From positions 1-64,000 of the forward strand of contig NZ_FOSL01000016.1 in assembly GCF_900114255.1 (NCBI RefSeq): a stretch of 64,000 nucleotides of DNA, given 5' to 3'. Every line of letters begins with the position of its first letter. Positions within the stretch are counted from its first letter, which is position 1. The position numbers and the translations under genes were made by a program. A model generated the notes under the pieces. It was not told the DNA's origin, did no database searches, and saw only the letters and a list, made by a program, of their open reading frames with translations. The DNA comes from Neomesorhizobium albiziae. GTDB taxonomy: Bacteria > Pseudomonadota > Alphaproteobacteria > Rhizobiales > Rhizobiaceae. Below, piece after piece: positions 3,005-24,541 of the stretch.

Positions 3005-3949
3005 ATGAGTGTGAGGACAAGATACACGGCCGCGGCCGCATGCGCTGTGGCGATGACGATTGCCGGCCTCGGGACCGGTTTCGCCGAAGAGAAGGTGAAG
3101 ATCGGCTTTTCACAGGGCACCATGGAAAGTTCGTGGCGCGTCAACATGGTGGAGGGCAACAAGAAATACGCTGAAGCGAACCTGCCCGACGTCGACCTGA
3201 TCGTCACCAATGGCGAGAACCAGGCCTCGAAGCAGGTTTCCGATGTCGAGAGCCTGATCTCGCAGGGGGTCAAGACGCTGATCATCAGCCCGGTGACGGC
3301 CGATGCCCTGACGCCCGTCGTGAAGCAGGCCATGGACGCCGGCATTCCGGTGGTCACGCTCGACCGCAAGGTCAACACGGACGTGACGCTTCATATCGGC
3401 GCCGACAATGTCCTGATCGGCAAGACGGCCGGCGAATTCGTCTGCCAGACGCTTGGCGGCAAAGGCAATGTCATCGAAATCCAGGGCACGGCGGGCGCCT
3501 CGGCCACCGTCGACCGGCACGACGCCTTCCACAAAGTGCTGGCGGAGAAATGCCCGGACGTAAAGGTGGTTGCCGACCAGGTGGCCAACTATGTCCGCGA
3601 ACCGGCGATCAAGTTCATGGAGGACATGCTGCAACGCTTCAAGCCCGGCGAGATCCAGCTGGTTTACGCGCACAACGACGACATGGCGCTCGGCGCGGTG
3701 ACGGCGCTGGAAGCCGCCAACCGGCTGTCGGAAGTAAAGGTGGTCGGCATCGACGGCGAAAACGCCGCCTATGACGCCATCAAGGCCGGCAAGATGGTGG
3801 CGACGTTCACCTACCACTTCGTCGCGCCGGAAGGTGTCCAGTACGGCTACAAAGTTGCCAAGGGCGAGAAGCTCGACAAGGAGATCGTGCTGCCGACCCA
3901 TCAGGTCGATGCGACCAATGTCGACGACTGGATCGGCAAGGGCTTTTGA
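3005..3949 (+). CDS. Periplasmic sugar-binding protein (RbsB-like, Peripla_BP_4)
   Basis: 314 residues. A cleavable signal peptide occupies about residues 1-27 (positive start, alanine-rich core, ending GFA). The mature part starts KVKIGFSQGT and has the type I periplasmic-binding fold features VESLISQGVKTLIISP, GIPVVTLDR and an AHNDDMALGA segment near the hinge. Ribosome site AGGAGG six bases before ATG 3005. It delivers substrate to the permease and ATPase encoded upstream. Ribose-type family membership is firm; the ligand is not determinable. Confidence 0.93.
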   Translation: MSVRTRYTAAAACAVAMTIAGLGTGFAEEKVKIGFSQGTMESSWRVNMVEGNKKYAEANLPDVDLIVTNGENQASKQVSDVESLISQGVKTLIISPVTADALTPVVKQAMDAGIPVVTLDRKVNTDVTLHIGADNVLIGKTAGEFVCQTLGGKGNVIEIQGTAGASATVDRHDAFHKVLAEKCPDVKVVADQVANYVREPAIKFMEDMLQRFKPGEIQLVYAHNDDMALGAVTALEAANRLSEVKVVGIDGENAAYDAIKAGKMVATFTYHFVAPEGVQYGYKVAKGEKLDKEIVLPTHQVDATNVDDWIGKGF

Positions 3950-4109
3950 CATCGGCTGGCCCGCCGGACATCAACGGCTGGAGGGGCAACCGCCGTGGAA
4001 CGGCATTTCGTGAAATCGCCAGCAGGCACGGAACGTTGAAGCAATGAGAATTCCGGCGGCCGTGCCTGCGTATTGATTTGATAAAAATACCAATTTCAGC
4101 GAGCATGGC

Positions 4110-5195
4110 ATGGATATCAGGCACGACCCGATGCTGGCGGCTGCAGGCGATCTCGACACGCCGTGCGTGACGATTCTCCTCGATCGGCTGGAAGACAATA
4201 TCGCCCGTGTCCAGCACATGATCGCCGCCGCCGGCAGGGCCAATCGCCCTCATATCAAGACCCACAAGATTCCGGCGATCGGTGCCTTGCAGATCGCCGC
4301 TGGCGCCATCGGGCTGACCTGTCAGAAACTCGGCGAGGCCGAGACGTTCATCGATGCCGGCGTCACCGACGATATGCTGATCACGTTCAACATCGTCGGC
4401 GATGCCAAGACCGGCCGCCTGATGGATCTGGCCGAACGCGTGAAGCGGCTGGCCGTCGTCGCCGACAACGATATCGTGCTTCGGGGCCTTTCCGATGCCG
4501 CTCGTCGCCGCGGTCGCAGCCTTCCCATTCTGATCGAGTGCGATGCAGGCTTCGGCCGCAACGGTGTTCAGTGGCCGTCAACGGCGCTCGACCTCGCCCG
4601 GCTTGCTGACAGGCTGCCAGGTGTCGTGTGCGAGGGGCTGCTGGTCTTTCCCAACAATGCACCGCGCACGCTGGAGTTCTTTGCTGAGGCCGTCTCCCTG
4701 TTTCGCGCGGCAGGGATGCCGCTTCCGGTCCTCTCAGGAGGCGGCACGCCTTCGCTGAACTCGCTGGCCGACTACCCGATGATGACGGAGCACCGCGCCG
4801 GCACCTATGTCTATAACGACGTCATGATGGTGCATTCCGGCATCGCCACCTGGGAGAATTGCGCCATGCATGTCCGCACCACGGTGGTCAGCCGGCCGAC
4901 CGAGGACCGTGCCATCGTCGATGCCGGCTCCAAGGTGCTGACCCGCGAGCAATATTACGTGCAAAACTTCGGGCATGTCGTGGAGTATCCCGAGGCGGCC
5001 GTGATCAACCTTTCGGAAGAACACGGCATCATCGACCTCTCGGCCTCGGCCGAAAAGCCGCGCGTCGGTGAGATCGTCAACATCATCCCGAACCATTGCT
5101 GCGTTGTCTCCAACATGGTCGACGAGGTTTACGGCCTGCGTGACGGCCGGGTCGAGATCGTCTGGCCCGTGGCCGCACGCGGCAAGGTACGGTAA
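4110..5195 (+). CDS. D-threonine aldolase-type PLP enzyme (alanine racemase N-terminal fold)
   Basis: 361 residues. The N-terminal PLP barrel has the PHIKTHK segment near residue 50, whose lysine is the expected Schiff-base residue. The C-terminal domain is the D-Ser dehydratase-like domain, with conserved metal-ligand-type residues in the NHCCVV segment near residue 329. Enzymes of this family cleave D-threonine or other D-3-hydroxyamino acids to glycine and an aldehyde, or dehydrate D-serine. It lies 160 bases after a sugar-binding protein and 35 bases before an amino-acid-binding protein, suggesting co-expression with the latter. AT-rich sequence at 4070-4095 may carry its own promoter. 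Exact substrate is inferred only from family. Confidence 0.83.
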   Translation: MDIRHDPMLAAAGDLDTPCVTILLDRLEDNIARVQHMIAAAGRANRPHIKTHKIPAIGALQIAAGAIGLTCQKLGEAETFIDAGVTDDMLITFNIVGDAKTGRLMDLAERVKRLAVVADNDIVLRGLSDAARRRGRSLPILIECDAGFGRNGVQWPSTALDLARLADRLPGVVCEGLLVFPNNAPRTLEFFAEAVSLFRAAGMPLPVLSGGGTPSLNSLADYPMMTEHRAGTYVYNDVMMVHSGIATWENCAMHVRTTVVSRPTEDRAIVDAGSKVLTREQYYVQNFGHVVEYPEAAVINLSEEHGIIDLSASAEKPRVGEIVNIIPNHCCVVSNMVDEVYGLRDGRVEIVWPVAARGKVR

Positions 5196-5230
5196 ATAGA
5201 ACTAGCTGCGTTCAAGAATGGGAGGAAGAC

Positions 5231-6064
5231 ATGAACAAGCATACGAAGACATTCATCCTCTGCGTCGGAAGCTTGATCCTGGGTTCGGGGGCCGTCCAGG
5301 CCGATAAGCTTGCGGATGTGCTAGCCCGTGGCAAGCTGATCGTCGGCACCGGCAGCACCAACCCGCCCTGGCATTTCCGTGACGAGGCGGGCAATCTCGC
5401 CGGTTTCGACGTCGACGTGGCCAAGATCGTCGCCAAAGGCCTGTTCGACGACGCAGAAAAGGTTGAGTTCGTCATCCAGGCATCCGACGCGCGCATCCCG
5501 AACGTCGTCACCGACAAGGTAGACATCACCTGCCAGTTCATGACGGTGACAGCTGCCCGAGCGCAGCAGGTCGCCTTCACCCTGCCTTACTATCGCGAAG
5601 GCGTCGGCTTCCTCCTGACGAAGGATGCCAAGCACAAGACCTATGACGAACTCAAGGCGGCGGGCGCTGCGGTCACCGTTTCGGTTCTGCAGAACGTCTA
5701 TGCGGAGGAGATGGTGCATCAGGCCCTGCCGGAAGCCAAGGTCGACCAGTATGAGAGCGTCGACCTCATGTACCAGGCGCTGAATTCCGGCCGTGCCGAC
5801 GCAGCCGCGACTGACATGTCCTCGCTCAAATGGTTCATGAAGCAGAATCCGGACAAATACCTCGATGCCGGCTATGGCTGGAATCCGCAGACCTACTCCT
5901 GCGCCATAAAGAAGGGTGATGCCGACTGGCTGAATTTCGTCAACATCGCGCTGCGCGAGGCGCTTTCAGGCGTCGAATTCGCCACCTACAGCGCGTCCTT
6001 CGAAAAATGGTTTGGCGAGGCGCCTCCCGCGCCGAAGATAGGCTTCCCGGCCGAGTTGCGTTGA
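5231..6064 (+). CDS. Polar amino-acid ABC transporter substrate-binding protein
   Basis: 277 residues with a signal peptide (about 1-24, ending VQA). It is a type II periplasmic-binding protein (SBP_bac_3): GKLIVGTG.TNPPWHF at the start of the mature chain, FDVDVAKI, and a DARIPNVVTDKVDI segment matching the family ligand-binding region. Ribosome site GGGAGGAAG before ATG 5231. It is followed at once by two permease genes, so it is the binding component of that importer. A role in bringing in the substrate of the adjacent D-threonine-aldolase-type enzyme is an inference from gene order. Confidence 0.92.
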   Translation: MNKHTKTFILCVGSLILGSGAVQADKLADVLARGKLIVGTGSTNPPWHFRDEAGNLAGFDVDVAKIVAKGLFDDAEKVEFVIQASDARIPNVVTDKVDITCQFMTVTAARAQQVAFTLPYYREGVGFLLTKDAKHKTYDELKAAGAAVTVSVLQNVYAEEMVHQALPEAKVDQYESVDLMYQALNSGRADAAATDMSSLKWFMKQNPDKYLDAGYGWNPQTYSCAIKKGDADWLNFVNIALREALSGVEFATYSASFEKWFGEAPPAPKIGFPAELR

Positions 6065-6082
6065 GGCCGGTTTGCTGGCGCC

Positions 6083-6742
6083 ATGACCTACACATTCAAC
6101 TTCAATGTGATCTGGGCCAACCTTGACCAATTGCTAAGCGGTTTGGCCCTGGGTCTGGCGCTCGCCTTTTTCTCGATATTGATCGGCGCCGCGATCGGCC
6201 TCGCTGCAGCCTTCGCGGCGACCGGCGGATCGCGGTTTCTGCGCGGCGCGGCGAGTGTATACGTCACCGCGATCCGCAACACGCCGCTCCTGGTCATCGT
6301 GCTGATCGCCTATTTCGCTCTGCCTGAACTCGGCATCCGCATGGGCAAGCTGGAAAGCTTCGTTGCCTCGCTGGCGATCTATGCGGGGGCTTATCTGACG
6401 GAAGTGTTTCGAGCCAGCCTGATCGGCATTCCGGCGGGGCTGATCGACGCCGGGCTGTCGATCGGCCTGACGCGATTCCAGGTGGCGCGGTTGGTGCGCT
6501 TCCCGATCATGTTGCGCAATGCCCTGCCGGCGCTCGGCTCGACCTTCATTTCGCTCTTCAAGGACACTTCAATTGCAGCTGCCATCGCCATACCTGAGCT
6601 CACCTTTCAGGCGCGTCGCATCAATGTCGACACATTCCGCGTGGTCGAGGCCTGGATGGCGGCCAGCATCCTCTACCTCGGTACCTGCCTGGTGATTGCT
6701 GCGGGGCTGCGACGGCTCGAGCGGCACTTTCCGAAGTTCTGA
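6083..6742 (+). CDS. Amino-acid ABC transporter permease (HisM/GlnP family), first subunit
   Basis: 219 residues, about five membrane segments. It contains the HEQ-family signature regions: AIRNTPLLVIV early, and AYLTEVFRASLIGIPAGLIDAG, the cytoplasmic coupling loop that contacts the ATPase. It starts 18 bases after the binding-protein stop. It pairs with the second permease at 6750 to form the channel. Family assignment secure. Confidence 0.92.
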   Translation: MTYTFNFNVIWANLDQLLSGLALGLALAFFSILIGAAIGLAAAFAATGGSRFLRGAASVYVTAIRNTPLLVIVLIAYFALPELGIRMGKLESFVASLAIYAGAYLTEVFRASLIGIPAGLIDAGLSIGLTRFQVARLVRFPIMLRNALPALGSTFISLFKDTSIAAAIAIPELTFQARRINVDTFRVVEAWMAASILYLGTCLVIAAGLRRLERHFPKF

Positions 6743-6749
6743 AACGGCG

Positions 6750-7403
6750 ATGGGTGAATTCTTCGCGGAAATCTGGACGGCGCGGGCGCAACTGGCCGAA
6801 GGCCTGTTGGCCACGATTGAAATCTCTGCCGTCGCAATTTTCACCGGCTCGGCGCTCGGCCTTTTTACCGGCATCGGTCTCGTTTACGGCTGGCGTCCGC
6901 TGCGATGGCTGTTGCGCTTCTACGTCGACGTCGTGCGCGGCACGCCTGTCCTCGTGCTGATCCTCGCCACCTTCTACATTCTTGCCGTTTTCGGGGTGCA
7001 GTTCACCGCGGTCGGGTCGGGCATGTTCGCGCTGTCGCTATTCTGCGGCGGCCATTTGGGCGAGATCGTACGCGGCGCGCTGCAGACGATCCCGGCAACG
7101 CAAATCGATGCGGGAAAAAGCGTCGGGCTGAGAATGCCACAGATTCTTCTGCTCGTGCTTTTGCCGCAGGCGCTCCGCCAGATATTGCCAGTGTGGATCA
7201 ATACCGCCGTCGAGATCGTCAAAGCGTCGACCTTGCTCTCAATCATCGGCGTCGGCGAGTTGCTGCTGAAGACACAGGAGATCATCGGCCGGAATTTCCT
7301 GACGCTCGAATTCTACACATTTGCCGGGCTTCTCTACTTCCTGGTCAATTTTTCCATCGAGCGGTTCGGCCGGATTGTGGAGCGCCGTCTTGCTTTGGCG
7401 TGA
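6750..7403 (+). CDS. Amino-acid ABC transporter permease, second subunit
   Basis: 217 residues, HisQ-like. VRGTPVLVLI and the coupling-loop pattern HLGEIVRGALQTIPATQIDAG are clear. Start chosen at ATG 6750, seven bases after the preceding stop; an upstream in-frame codon at 6696 would overlap the first permease. Normally a GlnQ-type ATPase gene follows; here the next 240 bases hold no gene, so the importer lacks its motor in this window and must borrow one or be encoded elsewhere. Confidence 0.92.
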   Translation: MGEFFAEIWTARAQLAEGLLATIEISAVAIFTGSALGLFTGIGLVYGWRPLRWLLRFYVDVVRGTPVLVLILATFYILAVFGVQFTAVGSGMFALSLFCGGHLGEIVRGALQTIPATQIDAGKSVGLRMPQILLLVLLPQALRQILPVWINTAVEIVKASTLLSIIGVGELLLKTQEIIGRNFLTLEFYTFAGLLYFLVNFSIERFGRIVERRLALA

Positions 7404-17953: not shown

Positions 17954-18645
17954 GGTCTCTCCCTCGGTTCTGCTTGTTAGCCGGGTAGCGTCCATTGCGT
18001 GGCGCCATCATTAATCGTGCTGGACTGACTGTCGGTGCACGAAATGCGCGTGTTCCTCATTTGCTCGATCGACCAGCGCGCCGACCAGAGACATGCAGAG
18101 AACGCTATGTGGAGGGCGCGTGTTCAGTCGACTGTATCAAGGCCGAGGACGATTGATACTCAGGCATAGGATCTCCCACGCGCTAGGTGTGGCGCGACAG
18201 ACAAGAGGCACAGCCGCTGTTCGCTGCCCAAACGGCGCCTTCCGACGATTGTGCGAGATCACCCATACTCGCAACGGGTCCGCCATGGATCTTCGCATAA
18301 CCTGACCAACGCTTCGGTTCGATGGCCGTGCAGGCCGACGCGGCGCAACCTCCTCCGCAGACGCCAGGTGCTCCTCATGGAGGCGCGAGCCAACCCTTGG
18401 GGCCGCTGGCGGAGGTGGCGGTACGGCCGTGGTCAGCAGGAGACAAACATGAGTTTGGGGAACATCTCACAGCCCCCGGTCAAATACTGCGCAGACAAGC
18501 CGGACACCTCAGCATGCCTCACCCTCGATGATATTGGGAGGCCGCTATCGGCAATGCATCGGCATACCGCAACGGCTCTACGACGTCGGCGCCCACGCCG
18601 CCTGTTGCGAGCAAGATTCTGCAATCCTCATGGAGGAGAACAACC
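17954..18645. other. Gene-poor stretch, no intact gene
   Basis: Only short overlapping frames with no recognisable product. A plus-strand ATG at 18449 follows AGGAGACAAAC and starts a 90-codon frame (MSLGNISQPP...) that runs into the next gene; its leader resembles that of the MBL gene at 24181, but no domain is seen. Interpreted as decayed sequence plus the promoter region of the oxidase gene. Confidence 0.4.
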
Positions 18646-19992
18646 ATGGAACCTGAGCGCACGGCAGGAACTCATGACCCAGACCCATCGCAAGCGGCTG
18701 GAAGTGCCGAGCCCAGAATGATCGCGCGGCGCAGGTTGCTGAAGTTCCTCGCAGCAAGCCCTCTCGTTGCGACGCCGACGGTCGCCTCCGCCATCGCCAG
18801 CTTGCTTGCCTCCGCACCGGGCCAGGCGCTCGCGCAAAACTACGACGTGCTGCGCGCCTCTCGAAGAGCGCTTGGCCCGGACGGCATCATCACAGCGCCT
18901 GGTGATGCGCTCAACGTGTTCGAGTTCGAGCCGGCGGCGAAGAAGGCCGTGCTCAGCCAGGACGCGCCGGCGCACTGGGGCTATCTGGAGAGCGGCGTCG
19001 ACGGCGACGTGACGCGCGACGCCAACCACACCGCCTACCAGCGCTACAGCCTCCGCGTGAAGCGCCTCATCGACGCGCGCAAGGTCGACTCCAGTGTCAA
19101 GGTCTTCGGCGAGACCTGGGGCAGCCCCATCTTCATCTGCCCGGTCAGCAGCCTCGGCGCCTACGAACCCGAGGCGGGGGTCGCTGTGGCGCGTGCGGTC
19201 GGCAAGCGCAAGCACCAGATGATCCTCTCGACCGTCGACAACGCGAGCATCGCCGACGTGAACAAGGCGCTCGGCTCGCCAGCTTGGTTCCAGCTTTATC
19301 CGACCGACGACTGGGCCGTCACGCAGGCGCTGGTGAACTGCGCCGAGGCGGCGGGCTCTCCGGCGATTGTCCTCACGGTCGACCGGCAGGGCGGCCGCAA
19401 CACCGAGGATCTGTTCCGCGCGCGGCGCCTGGACCAGCGCGACTGCACGGCCTGTCACACGCCGGGCTTCGCCAACGACGTCAGCCGCAAGGCCAACTTC
19501 TTCGATATCGATGTCTCGAAAGTCACCAACCTCTACGGCACCGGCATGACGTGGGAATCCGTCGATCGCCTGCGCGGGATCGTCAAGGGCAAGCTCCTAC
19601 TGAAAGGTATCATGACCGGCGACGACGCCAAGCAGGCGCTGAGCCATGGCGTGGACGGCATCTTGGTTTCCAACCACGGCGGCCGCGCCGAAGAGAGCGG
19701 ACAGGCGACGATCGGTGTTCTTGCTGAGGTCGTGGACGCGGTGGACGGCCGTATTCCAGTACTCGTCGACGGGGGCGTACGCCGCGGCACCGATGTGTTG
19801 AAAGCGCTCGCCCTGGGTGCAACTGCCGTCGGCATTGGCCGGCCCTATGTGTGGGGCCTCGCTTCATTCGGAGAAGCCGGCGTGGACCGCGTGCTGGAGA
19901 TTCTAGGCGCCGAGTTCGTCACGATCATGCGGCAGGTGGGAGCGCTGAACATCAAGGAGATCACGCGGGGCAACGTGACCAGCGCCCTTTAG
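18646..19992 (+). CDS. Tat-exported FMN-dependent alpha-hydroxy-acid dehydrogenase/oxidase
   Basis: 448 residues. A twin-arginine leader (ARRRLLKFLA, then a hydrophobic stretch ending ALA) occupies about 1-60, so the folded flavoprotein would go to the periplasm. The FMN-barrel family features are present: WFQLYPTDDW, LTVDRQGGRNTEDLF, the FMN-contacting lysine in LLLKGIMTGDDA, the catalytic His and Arg in SNHGGR, and the phosphate loop VDGGVRRGTDVLKALALGATAVGIGR. Unusually, residues 267-271 form CTACH, a c-type haem attachment motif, in the variable loop. It oxidises a 2-hydroxy acid (lactate, glycolate or mandelate type) to the 2-oxo acid. Ribosome site GGAGG before ATG 18646. Confidence 0.88.
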   Translation: MEPERTAGTHDPDPSQAAGSAEPRMIARRRLLKFLAASPLVATPTVASAIASLLASAPGQALAQNYDVLRASRRALGPDGIITAPGDALNVFEFEPAAKKAVLSQDAPAHWGYLESGVDGDVTRDANHTAYQRYSLRVKRLIDARKVDSSVKVFGETWGSPIFICPVSSLGAYEPEAGVAVARAVGKRKHQMILSTVDNASIADVNKALGSPAWFQLYPTDDWAVTQALVNCAEAAGSPAIVLTVDRQGGRNTEDLFRARRLDQRDCTACHTPGFANDVSRKANFFDIDVSKVTNLYGTGMTWESVDRLRGIVKGKLLLKGIMTGDDAKQALSHGVDGILVSNHGGRAEESGQATIGVLAEVVDAVDGRIPVLVDGGVRRGTDVLKALALGATAVGIGRPYVWGLASFGEAGVDRVLEILGAEFVTIMRQVGALNIKEITRGNVTSAL

Positions 19993-23245: not shown

Positions 23246-24181
23246 TCAGTAGTCCCACCAGGCCGGTACCCAACGATAGAGGTCGCCGGCGGCCGCCACA
23301 CGGCCGACGGACGGGAACGGCAGGTGCGTGGACACCAGCCACGCGCCGGTCTCCGCCAGCTCCCGCATCAGGCGGAGCCGAACGCGGGTCGCCTCCTCGG
23401 GGTCGTGTTCGAAACCATTGTGCCATTCGGGATGGTCGAACGAGACCGGGAACAGGGCGTCGCCGGCGAATATCAGCCGGTCGCCACCGGATGTCAGGCG
23501 GACCACACTGTGCCCGGGGGTATGGCCGCCTGTGCGGGCGACGACCACTCCCGGCGCCACCTCCTGCTCCTCTTCGAAGGTGCGCAGCTGGCCGCGGTAC
23601 GCCTTCAAGAACCGCTTAGAGGCACTTCGGGCCACCTCCGCCAGCGCCGGCGGCATGCCCGTGCGAGAGAAATCAGGCGCTTCCCAGAACTTGGCCTCAG
23701 CGGCCGACACGTGGACCCGCAGGTCCGGGCGCAGCCGTTCCTTCACCCCGTCGACGAGCAGCCCGCCGACGTGATCAAAGTGCATGTGGGTCAGCACCAC
23801 GTCGGTCACGGACGCAAGATCGATGCCGGCGGCCTCCAGTCGATGGACCAAATGCCCAGCCCGGGGGAAGTCGGGGACCTCCACCCCTAACCCGCTGTCG
23901 ATGAGTATGGTTTGGCCGCCGCTGCGCACCACGACCGCGTTCAGCGCCCAATCGAACGCGTCCCGCGACAGGAACATATCGTCCAGCCAGGCCCCACGGA
24001 CGGCCGGGTCGGCGTTGGTGGCCATTGATTCGGCTGGCGGCGTTACCACGCCATCGCTGATAACCAGCACTTCGATCTCGCCGACCATTACCGCGTAGCG
24101 CGACGGAACCAGCTCGTCGGGCCCCTGCGTACCGAGGCGCGAGGTATTGTCCAAGCTCATGTTTGTCTGGTGCTGTCCCAT
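23246..24181 (-). CDS. MBL-fold metallo-hydrolase
   Basis: 311 residues. The di-zinc motif THMHFDHVGG lies at about residue 131, followed by further ligands in GGHTPGHS and in FAGDALFP, and a late His in VSTHLPFPS. It resembles the lactonase/quorum-quenching and glyoxalase-II-like branch. No signal peptide. ATG 24181 follows GGAGACAAAC; a second in-frame ATG at 24160 has a near-identical leader (AGACAAAC), so either may be used. Stand-alone gene reading left, adjacent to the glycosyltransferase cassette. Substrate not determinable; lactone hydrolysis is a family-based guess. Confidence 0.88.
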   Translation of the reverse strand: MGQHQTNMSLDNTSRLGTQGPDELVPSRYAVMVGEIEVLVISDGVVTPPAESMATNADPAVRGAWLDDMFLSRDAFDWALNAVVVRSGGQTILIDSGLGVEVPDFPRAGHLVHRLEAAGIDLASVTDVVLTHMHFDHVGGLLVDGVKERLRPDLRVHVSAAEAKFWEAPDFSRTGMPPALAEVARSASKRFLKAYRGQLRTFEEEQEVAPGVVVARTGGHTPGHSVVRLTSGGDRLIFAGDALFPVSFDHPEWHNGFEHDPEEATRVRLRLMRELAETGAWLVSTHLPFPSVGRVAAAGDLYRWVPAWWDY

Positions 24182-24541
24182 GTTTGTCTCCTACGGATTA
24201 CCTTTCCACGGCCGTATCGGCCAAATCCGCCCTGGACCCAAGGTTTGGCACGTGCACCTCCATGGATAGCCAACTGGCGTCTGCGGAGACAGATTGCGTC
24301 GCCGCGGCCTGCGCGACCATCGAACGGAAGCACCAGTCATGCCATGCGAAGGTTCATGTCAGGCCCGTTACGAGCATGGGTAATCTCGCGCAAACGTCGG
24401 CAGGCCGCACTTCGAGCAAACAGCAGTTGCGCTCTTGCCTGTTGGCGTTACACCAGCGCGTGCGAGATTCCATACCGTGGTATCAGTCGCCCACGGCCTT
24501 GATGCAGTCAACGCGAGCGCACTCGACATAGCGTTGTCGAA
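24182..24541. other. Intergenic, no gene seen
   Basis: Upstream region of the MBL gene. The open frames are short and unrecognisable. It may contain remains of the gene to which the pirin fragment belonged. Confidence 0.4.

Follow-up and report, generated by a model that had tools for sequence, protein, structure and literature searches.

A conserved CXXCH motif suggests a haem c built into the oxidase fold of an alphaproteobacterial FMN_dh family

Why would a flavin-dependent oxidase carry a motif for the covalent attachment of haem? In the stretch of Neomesorhizobium albiziae DNA analysed here (64,000 nucleotides, hereafter the window), one open reading frame encodes a 448-residue protein with the sequence CTACH at residues 267–271 (codons tgc acg gcc tgt cac; Table 1). 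The original prediction, made from the letters of the window, had placed this motif in an exported FMN alpha-hydroxy-acid oxidase and had offered two readings of it, a covalent haem or a metal or disulphide site. Translation of the reading frame and a match to PF01070 (FMN_dh; E = 2e-100, 336.7 bits, above the curated cut-off of 24.9) confirm both the motif and the family. Our analysis suggests that this is an alphaproteobacterial family in which a haem has been built straight into an ordinary oxidase fold, for the delivery of electrons to the respiratory chain. We put at roughly two in three the probability that the protein is an exported 2-hydroxy-acid dehydrogenase of flavocytochrome c type, carrying a covalent haem c on its own loop 4 and passing electrons to cytochrome c. 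That a haem c is present, in the role of either electron carrier or sensor, we judge more probable still from the patterns of conservation described below.

By sequence, the closest solved proteins to the window protein are lactate, glycolate and hydroxyacid oxidases; by fold, they are hydroxyacid and glycolate oxidases. Y218, D246, K320, H344 and R347 are identical in all 37 proteins of our alignment, motif-bearing and motif-free alike, in agreement with the earlier claim that all FMN-site residues are present. We take Y218 and D246 to be active-site residues, K320 to belong to the FMN site, H344 to be the catalytic base and R347 to bind substrate. Y113 is likewise kept in the window protein; in two distant motif-bearing proteins (L022 and L057) it is replaced by H or S, so the chemistry may differ within the motif-bearing clade. 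The pre-mycofactocin synthase MftD (TIGR03966) is another FMN_dh relative that the window protein matches, but with a score of 184.4 bits, below the cut-off of 470.85. No cytochrome domain appears among the five Pfam matches at E 0.001, and the cytochrome b5-like domain PF00173 was absent from the window protein in the same search. With no Pfam match, a fused cytochrome domain as the source of the haem was rejected.

Table 1. Positions in the window of the gene and of the residues discussed in the text
Feature	Position	Strand	Basis
Homologue of FMN-dependent 2-hydroxy-acid dehydrogenases, Tat-type, 448 aa, with CXXCH	18646..19992	+	ORF, PF01070, nearest folds
Signal region, residues 1–62 (cleavage site assumed)	18646..18831	+	R28-R29 at 18727–18732, invariant in 28/28
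H110, proposed distal haem ligand	18973..18975	+	His in 28/28 motif-bearing and 0/9 motif-free rows
Y218, family active-site residue	19297..19299	+	37/37 rows
D246, family active-site residue	19381..19383	+	37/37 rows
Loop 4 region, residues 247–302, carrying the motif	19384..19551	+	Alignments, low pLDDT; named by family analogy
D263, clade-specific invariant of loop 4	19432..19434	+	Alignment
CTACH, proposed haem c attachment site (C267, C270, H271)	19444..19458	+	C, C and H in 28/28
D289, clade-specific invariant at the end of loop 4	19510..19512	+	Alignment
K320, family FMN-site residue	19603..19605	+	37/37 rows
H344, family catalytic base	19675..19677	+	37/37 rows
R347, substrate-binding arginine	19684..19686	+	37/37 rows

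Relatives were gathered from GTDB contigs (13 loci), from plasmids (one record) and from viral contigs (2 loci), with ORFs identical under two locus identifiers counted once. In genome sets searched at E 1e-60, genomes with matches numbered 6 of 385 (class), 14 of 397 (order), 7 of 398 (phylum) and 7 of 149 (one family); matches were also obtained in one of the two genomes of the genus (the window's own) and in the single genome of one more set. These sets overlap, all but the family and single-genome sets include the window's genome, and some of the matches are motif-free. The nearest relatives found belong to two Mesorhizobium species (93% identity). CXXCH is present in 28 of the 37 distinct aligned proteins, the window protein included, and always at the same place; nine lack it. 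The 27 motif-bearing relatives are 45.6–94.5% identical to the window protein and the motif-free ones at most 42.1%. Compared in pairs, the 27 intact motif-bearing rows, without the truncated L017, share 68% identity on average and 44% at the least. Across this range the first X is T, S, K, A or N and the second D, G, A, S, M or L; positional entropy is zero at both cysteines and the histidine and about 2 bits at the XX positions, a pattern expected where only the two cysteines and the histidine matter. The original prediction had named conservation of CTACH in homologues as a check; the two cysteines and the histidine are kept in all 27 relatives found, down to 46% identity, and XX varies. 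Shuffling the window protein yields a CXXCH in 8 of 20,000 trials; a chance origin was rejected because the motif is kept at one place in 28 of 28 rows, and this conservation outweighs the shuffle figure.

Three other FMN_dh proteins of the window's genome (6.27 Mb in 92 contigs) that were found with the query (L002, L003/L005 and L004/L006) are 30–51% identical to the window protein over the matched pieces, and CXXCH is absent from all three. The named motif-bearing relatives among the GTDB loci are all alphaproteobacteria. A search of 229 genomes from another class in the phylum gave no match at E 1e-80; for want of a positive control, this carries no weight against a wider spread. Some individual copies deserve mention. 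The Phyllobacterium copy (L017, about 5950–7104) has a frame change after SNHGGR, possibly a sequencing error, and is truncated with its motif intact. A relative with 64% identity and the motif CAACH (L058, 5001–6128) lies near the end of a contig from the viral collection, which may be host DNA beside a prophage. One genome (G1157) has two motif-bearing copies, L055 and the distant L057, the latter with Ser in place of Y113 and DHGGR in place of NHGGR.

The original prediction had also named a distal Met or His ligand as something to look for. We set 27 FMN_dh proteins with CXXCH against 24 that lack it, 51 in all; among the 24 are PF01070 proteins from 31 genomes of the order. L057 carries both the motif and H110 but has DHG where selection required NHG, so it is part of the 28-row set and absent from the 27-row set and the tree. 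Invariants were counted from residue 63 on, again leaving out L017 (26 motif-bearing versus 24 motif-free rows). The 26 motif-bearers all share seven residues that none of the 24 others has, namely I82, H110, D263, C267, C270, H271 and D289; as "motif-free" here means lacking CXXCH anywhere, only the counts for I82, H110, D263 and D289 are informative. Five of the seven (D263, C267, C270, H271 and D289) fall in loop 4.

H110 lies far from that loop in sequence, 157 residues before C267, and is present in 27 of 27 motif-bearing rows and in none of the 24 motif-free rows of the larger set. The only other invariant histidines of the motif-bearers are H271 and the catalytic H344, and their only invariant cysteines are C267 and C270. 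By conservation, H110 fits the part of distal haem ligand. The methionine named beside a histidine in the original prediction fares worse. M428, the sole invariant Met in the 27 intact motif-bearing rows, is also found in 17 of the 24 motif-free rows, which marks it as a feature of the family and not a special ligand, and a methionine in that role was rejected. The other invariant residues that could bind iron (K320, H344, K386, Y401, Y218 and M428) are each common to between 11 and all 24 of the motif-free rows; among them M428, K386 or Y401 may serve as an alternative haem ligand. H110 stands three residues before Y113, which pairs in the alignment with Y24 of glycolate oxidase, an active-site residue there. 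The matching tyrosine of flavocytochrome b2, Y143, is one that we take to lie at the haem-domain interface; a haem bound between loop 4 and H110 would then occupy roughly the docking place of the haem in b2.

When the loop-4 columns and the stretch around H110 are removed before tree building, all 27 motif-bearing rows fall on one side of a single branch (support 100/99), and one change of motif state suffices. With a single gain, the link between H110 and CXXCH amounts to one event held over the whole clade, with no independent repeats. Two proteins that have twin arginines and no motif (L023 and L024; support for the pair 100/97) adjoin the motif clade (100/99). The tree has a midpoint root, from which we infer the direction of change; the simplest history would then be that the export signal came first and the haem motif second.

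The motif-bearing enzymes are apparently exported. The N-terminus of the window protein reads ARRRLLKFLA, and R28 and R29 are invariant in all 28 motif-bearing rows, window protein included, which is good sequence evidence for a Tat-type signal. The machinery for haem attachment is also at hand: CcmF_C is found in the window's genome, and CcmF in all 19 genomes searched, of which 17 have a motif-bearing copy and 2 have relatives that lack the motif; this makes attachment possible and says no more. Gram-negative cytochromes c are normally exported unfolded, by Sec (PMC3601427), so a haem on a Tat substrate would be unusual, as the original prediction had objected. In passages of PMC4683180, PMC8105010 and PMC12780646 we found no clear precedent for a Tat-exported haem c protein. 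The objection is nevertheless weaker than it was made out to be, since a lactate oxidase structure shows loop 4 in two conformations (PMC7039449) and Ccm could reach so mobile a loop after Tat export. Altered versions of loop 4 also mark other members of the FMN_dh family (PMC8491902).

Two AlphaFold models, computed from 13 and 15 sequences (mean pLDDT 74.8 and 80.7), have a well-modelled barrel. It had been considered that the motif might be buried in a beta-hairpin with no room for haem; instead, in both models it falls within, or borders on, a low-confidence stretch (pLDDT <50) between two helices. The H110 stretch has pLDDT <50 in the first model and lies near a helix start in the second (model residue 25; helix 24–31). 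At such confidence in the motif loop, AlphaFold neither places a haem nor excludes one.

In the mechanism that we infer, C267 and C270 would form thioether bonds to a single haem c, with H271 as proximal ligand and H110, beside the active-site tyrosine, as distal ligand. The substrate, presumably a 2-hydroxy acid, would be oxidised at the FMN, by analogy with glycolate oxidase, and the nearby haem would pass the two electrons singly to a soluble periplasmic cytochrome c, by analogy with flavocytochrome b2. Such an exit would make the enzyme a dehydrogenase rather than an H2O2-making oxidase. Acceptors described for the FMN_dh family are oxygen, cytochrome c and quinone (PMC8491902); of these, cytochrome c is the one that a haem c next to the flavin would suggest. 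As for maturation, FMN loading and folding would take place in the cytoplasm, to be followed by Tat export and, in the periplasm, by attachment of haem to the exposed loop by Ccm.

Could the same residues serve another purpose? C267, C270, H271 and H110 might together bind a structural metal such as zinc, with no haem, and so order loop 4 over the active site. Two cysteines and two histidines, all clade-specific invariants, do make up a C2H2 set, and D263 and D289 could also bind. We consider this unlikely, however: haem c is recognised by exactly this C-X-X-C-H spacing with a free XX, CcmF in every genome searched makes attachment possible, and a single zinc is seldom bound by adjacent Cys and His residues. 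It is also conceivable that a haem c is present but binds or senses a small molecule (NO, CO or H2O2) and gates the active site, in place of carrying electrons. Its site on the loop that covers the active site would suit such a role, and some haem Cache proteins, whose fold is not that of a cytochrome, use a c-type haem motif that they have gained to bind NO (PMC12889525). Against this, the kept H110 suggests a six-coordinate haem, and the haem next to FMN in a member of the same family, flavocytochrome b2, feeds cytochrome c (PMC8491902); a sensor strikes us as rather improbable. We give still less credence to a disulphide or thiol switch at C267 and C270 by which loop 4 would be locked or opened in the periplasm. 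The motif-bearers have no other invariant cysteines, and a disulphide can form between those of an exported CXXCH (PMC3601427), but the invariance of H271 and H110 would be left unexplained. Of the two readings first offered, we favour haem over a metal or disulphide site.

The window protein can be set beside several characterised enzymes and domains. Flavocytochrome b2 (L-lactate:cytochrome c oxidoreductase, EC 1.1.2.3) belongs to the same FMN_dh family, has a haem beside the FMN that feeds cytochrome c, and holds that haem by two histidines (PMC6472588), as proposed here. The b2 haem, however, is of type b and sits in a domain of its own, the cytochrome b5-like PF00173, whereas the window protein has no such domain and would carry a covalent haem c in barrel loop 4; the window protein is, moreover, bacterial and bears a Tat-type signal. 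Glycolate oxidase/hydroxyacid oxidase 1 (EC 1.1.3.15), a peroxisomal enzyme with, to our knowledge, no haem motif, is among the closest solved proteins by sequence and fold and shares the catalytic set. We also know of no CXXCH in loop 4 of S-mandelate dehydrogenase or lactate 2-monooxygenase, where the loop differs from that of the window protein in being lengthened. Flavin and haem c are combined in p-cresol methylhydroxylase, flavocytochrome c sulfide dehydrogenase and the fumarate reductase flavocytochrome c3, but these have other flavoprotein folds and separate cytochrome domains or subunits. Oxygen is the acceptor of glycolate oxidase (PMC8491902), in contrast to the acceptor proposed here; S-mandelate dehydrogenase and lactate 2-monooxygenase resemble the window protein as FMN_dh members with an altered loop 4 (PMC8491902, PMC7039449), and the three flavocytochromes named above join flavin and haem c in one enzyme (PMC6472588), as proposed here. 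The nearest idea that we found is the haem c Cache domain (DUF3365/Tll0287), in which a non-cytochrome fold has gained a short CXXCH stretch (PMC12889525), although that is a sensor domain and not a flavoenzyme.

Flavocytochromes are sorted by their attached cytochromes in section 6 of PMC6472588, and none named there has a haem c inside the FMN_dh barrel; our literature search, which mostly covered work outside subscription journals, likewise found no published case. We propose, tentatively, that a TIM-barrel flavoenzyme may have become a flavocytochrome c without acquiring a cytochrome domain. A small number of residues in its mobile active-site loop would have become the haem c site, and the distal ligand would come from the part of the chain ahead of the barrel, beside the flavin. 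Closing of the loop, capture of the substrate and exit of the electrons would be a single movement, and the haem would be added after Tat export of the folded, FMN-loaded enzyme. If true, this would be a short route from flavin oxidase to cytochrome-coupled dehydrogenase, without domain fusion, and a case of haem c attached to a folded Tat substrate. A flavocytochrome free of a bulky cytochrome domain could also serve in direct electron transfer to electrodes.

Finally, we compared gene neighbourhoods (ORFs of at least 70 aa) at 24 loci, of which L053 is motif-free and L016 and L045 are the same place. The surroundings of the motif-bearing copies are unlike each other, and outside the oxidase itself no ORF cluster covers more than 6 of the 24 loci. 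A partner cytochrome gene next door was considered and rejected, none being conserved beside the oxidase across these loci. With no linked acceptor gene, electrons probably go to a general cytochrome c of the periplasm. Two CXXCH-bearing ORFs within 5 kb of the oxidase are candidate genes in their own right (L017, 8731–9069, minus strand, CEKCH; L040, 9990–10766, minus strand, CAACH).

In two Mesorhizobium species, a gene of the metallo-beta-lactamase fold lies directly upstream of the oxidase; such upstream genes are at 4747–5736 in one genome (L008) and at 3158–4123 and 4706–5716 in the other (L009). The window itself encodes at 18434–18499 a stretch like residues 6–27 of a metallo-beta-lactamase-fold protein, and its DNA from 18202 on is 74.5% identical over 263 columns to the DNA before a full copy at 23249–24175 on the minus strand (23249–24437 with the DNA before it). 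The oxidase thus seems to stand behind a truncated copy of this gene and its upstream region (18202–18499). On the opposite strand, about 950 bases before the oxidase, is a gene for an NADPH-dependent FMN reductase (PF03358; 17129–17701, minus strand).
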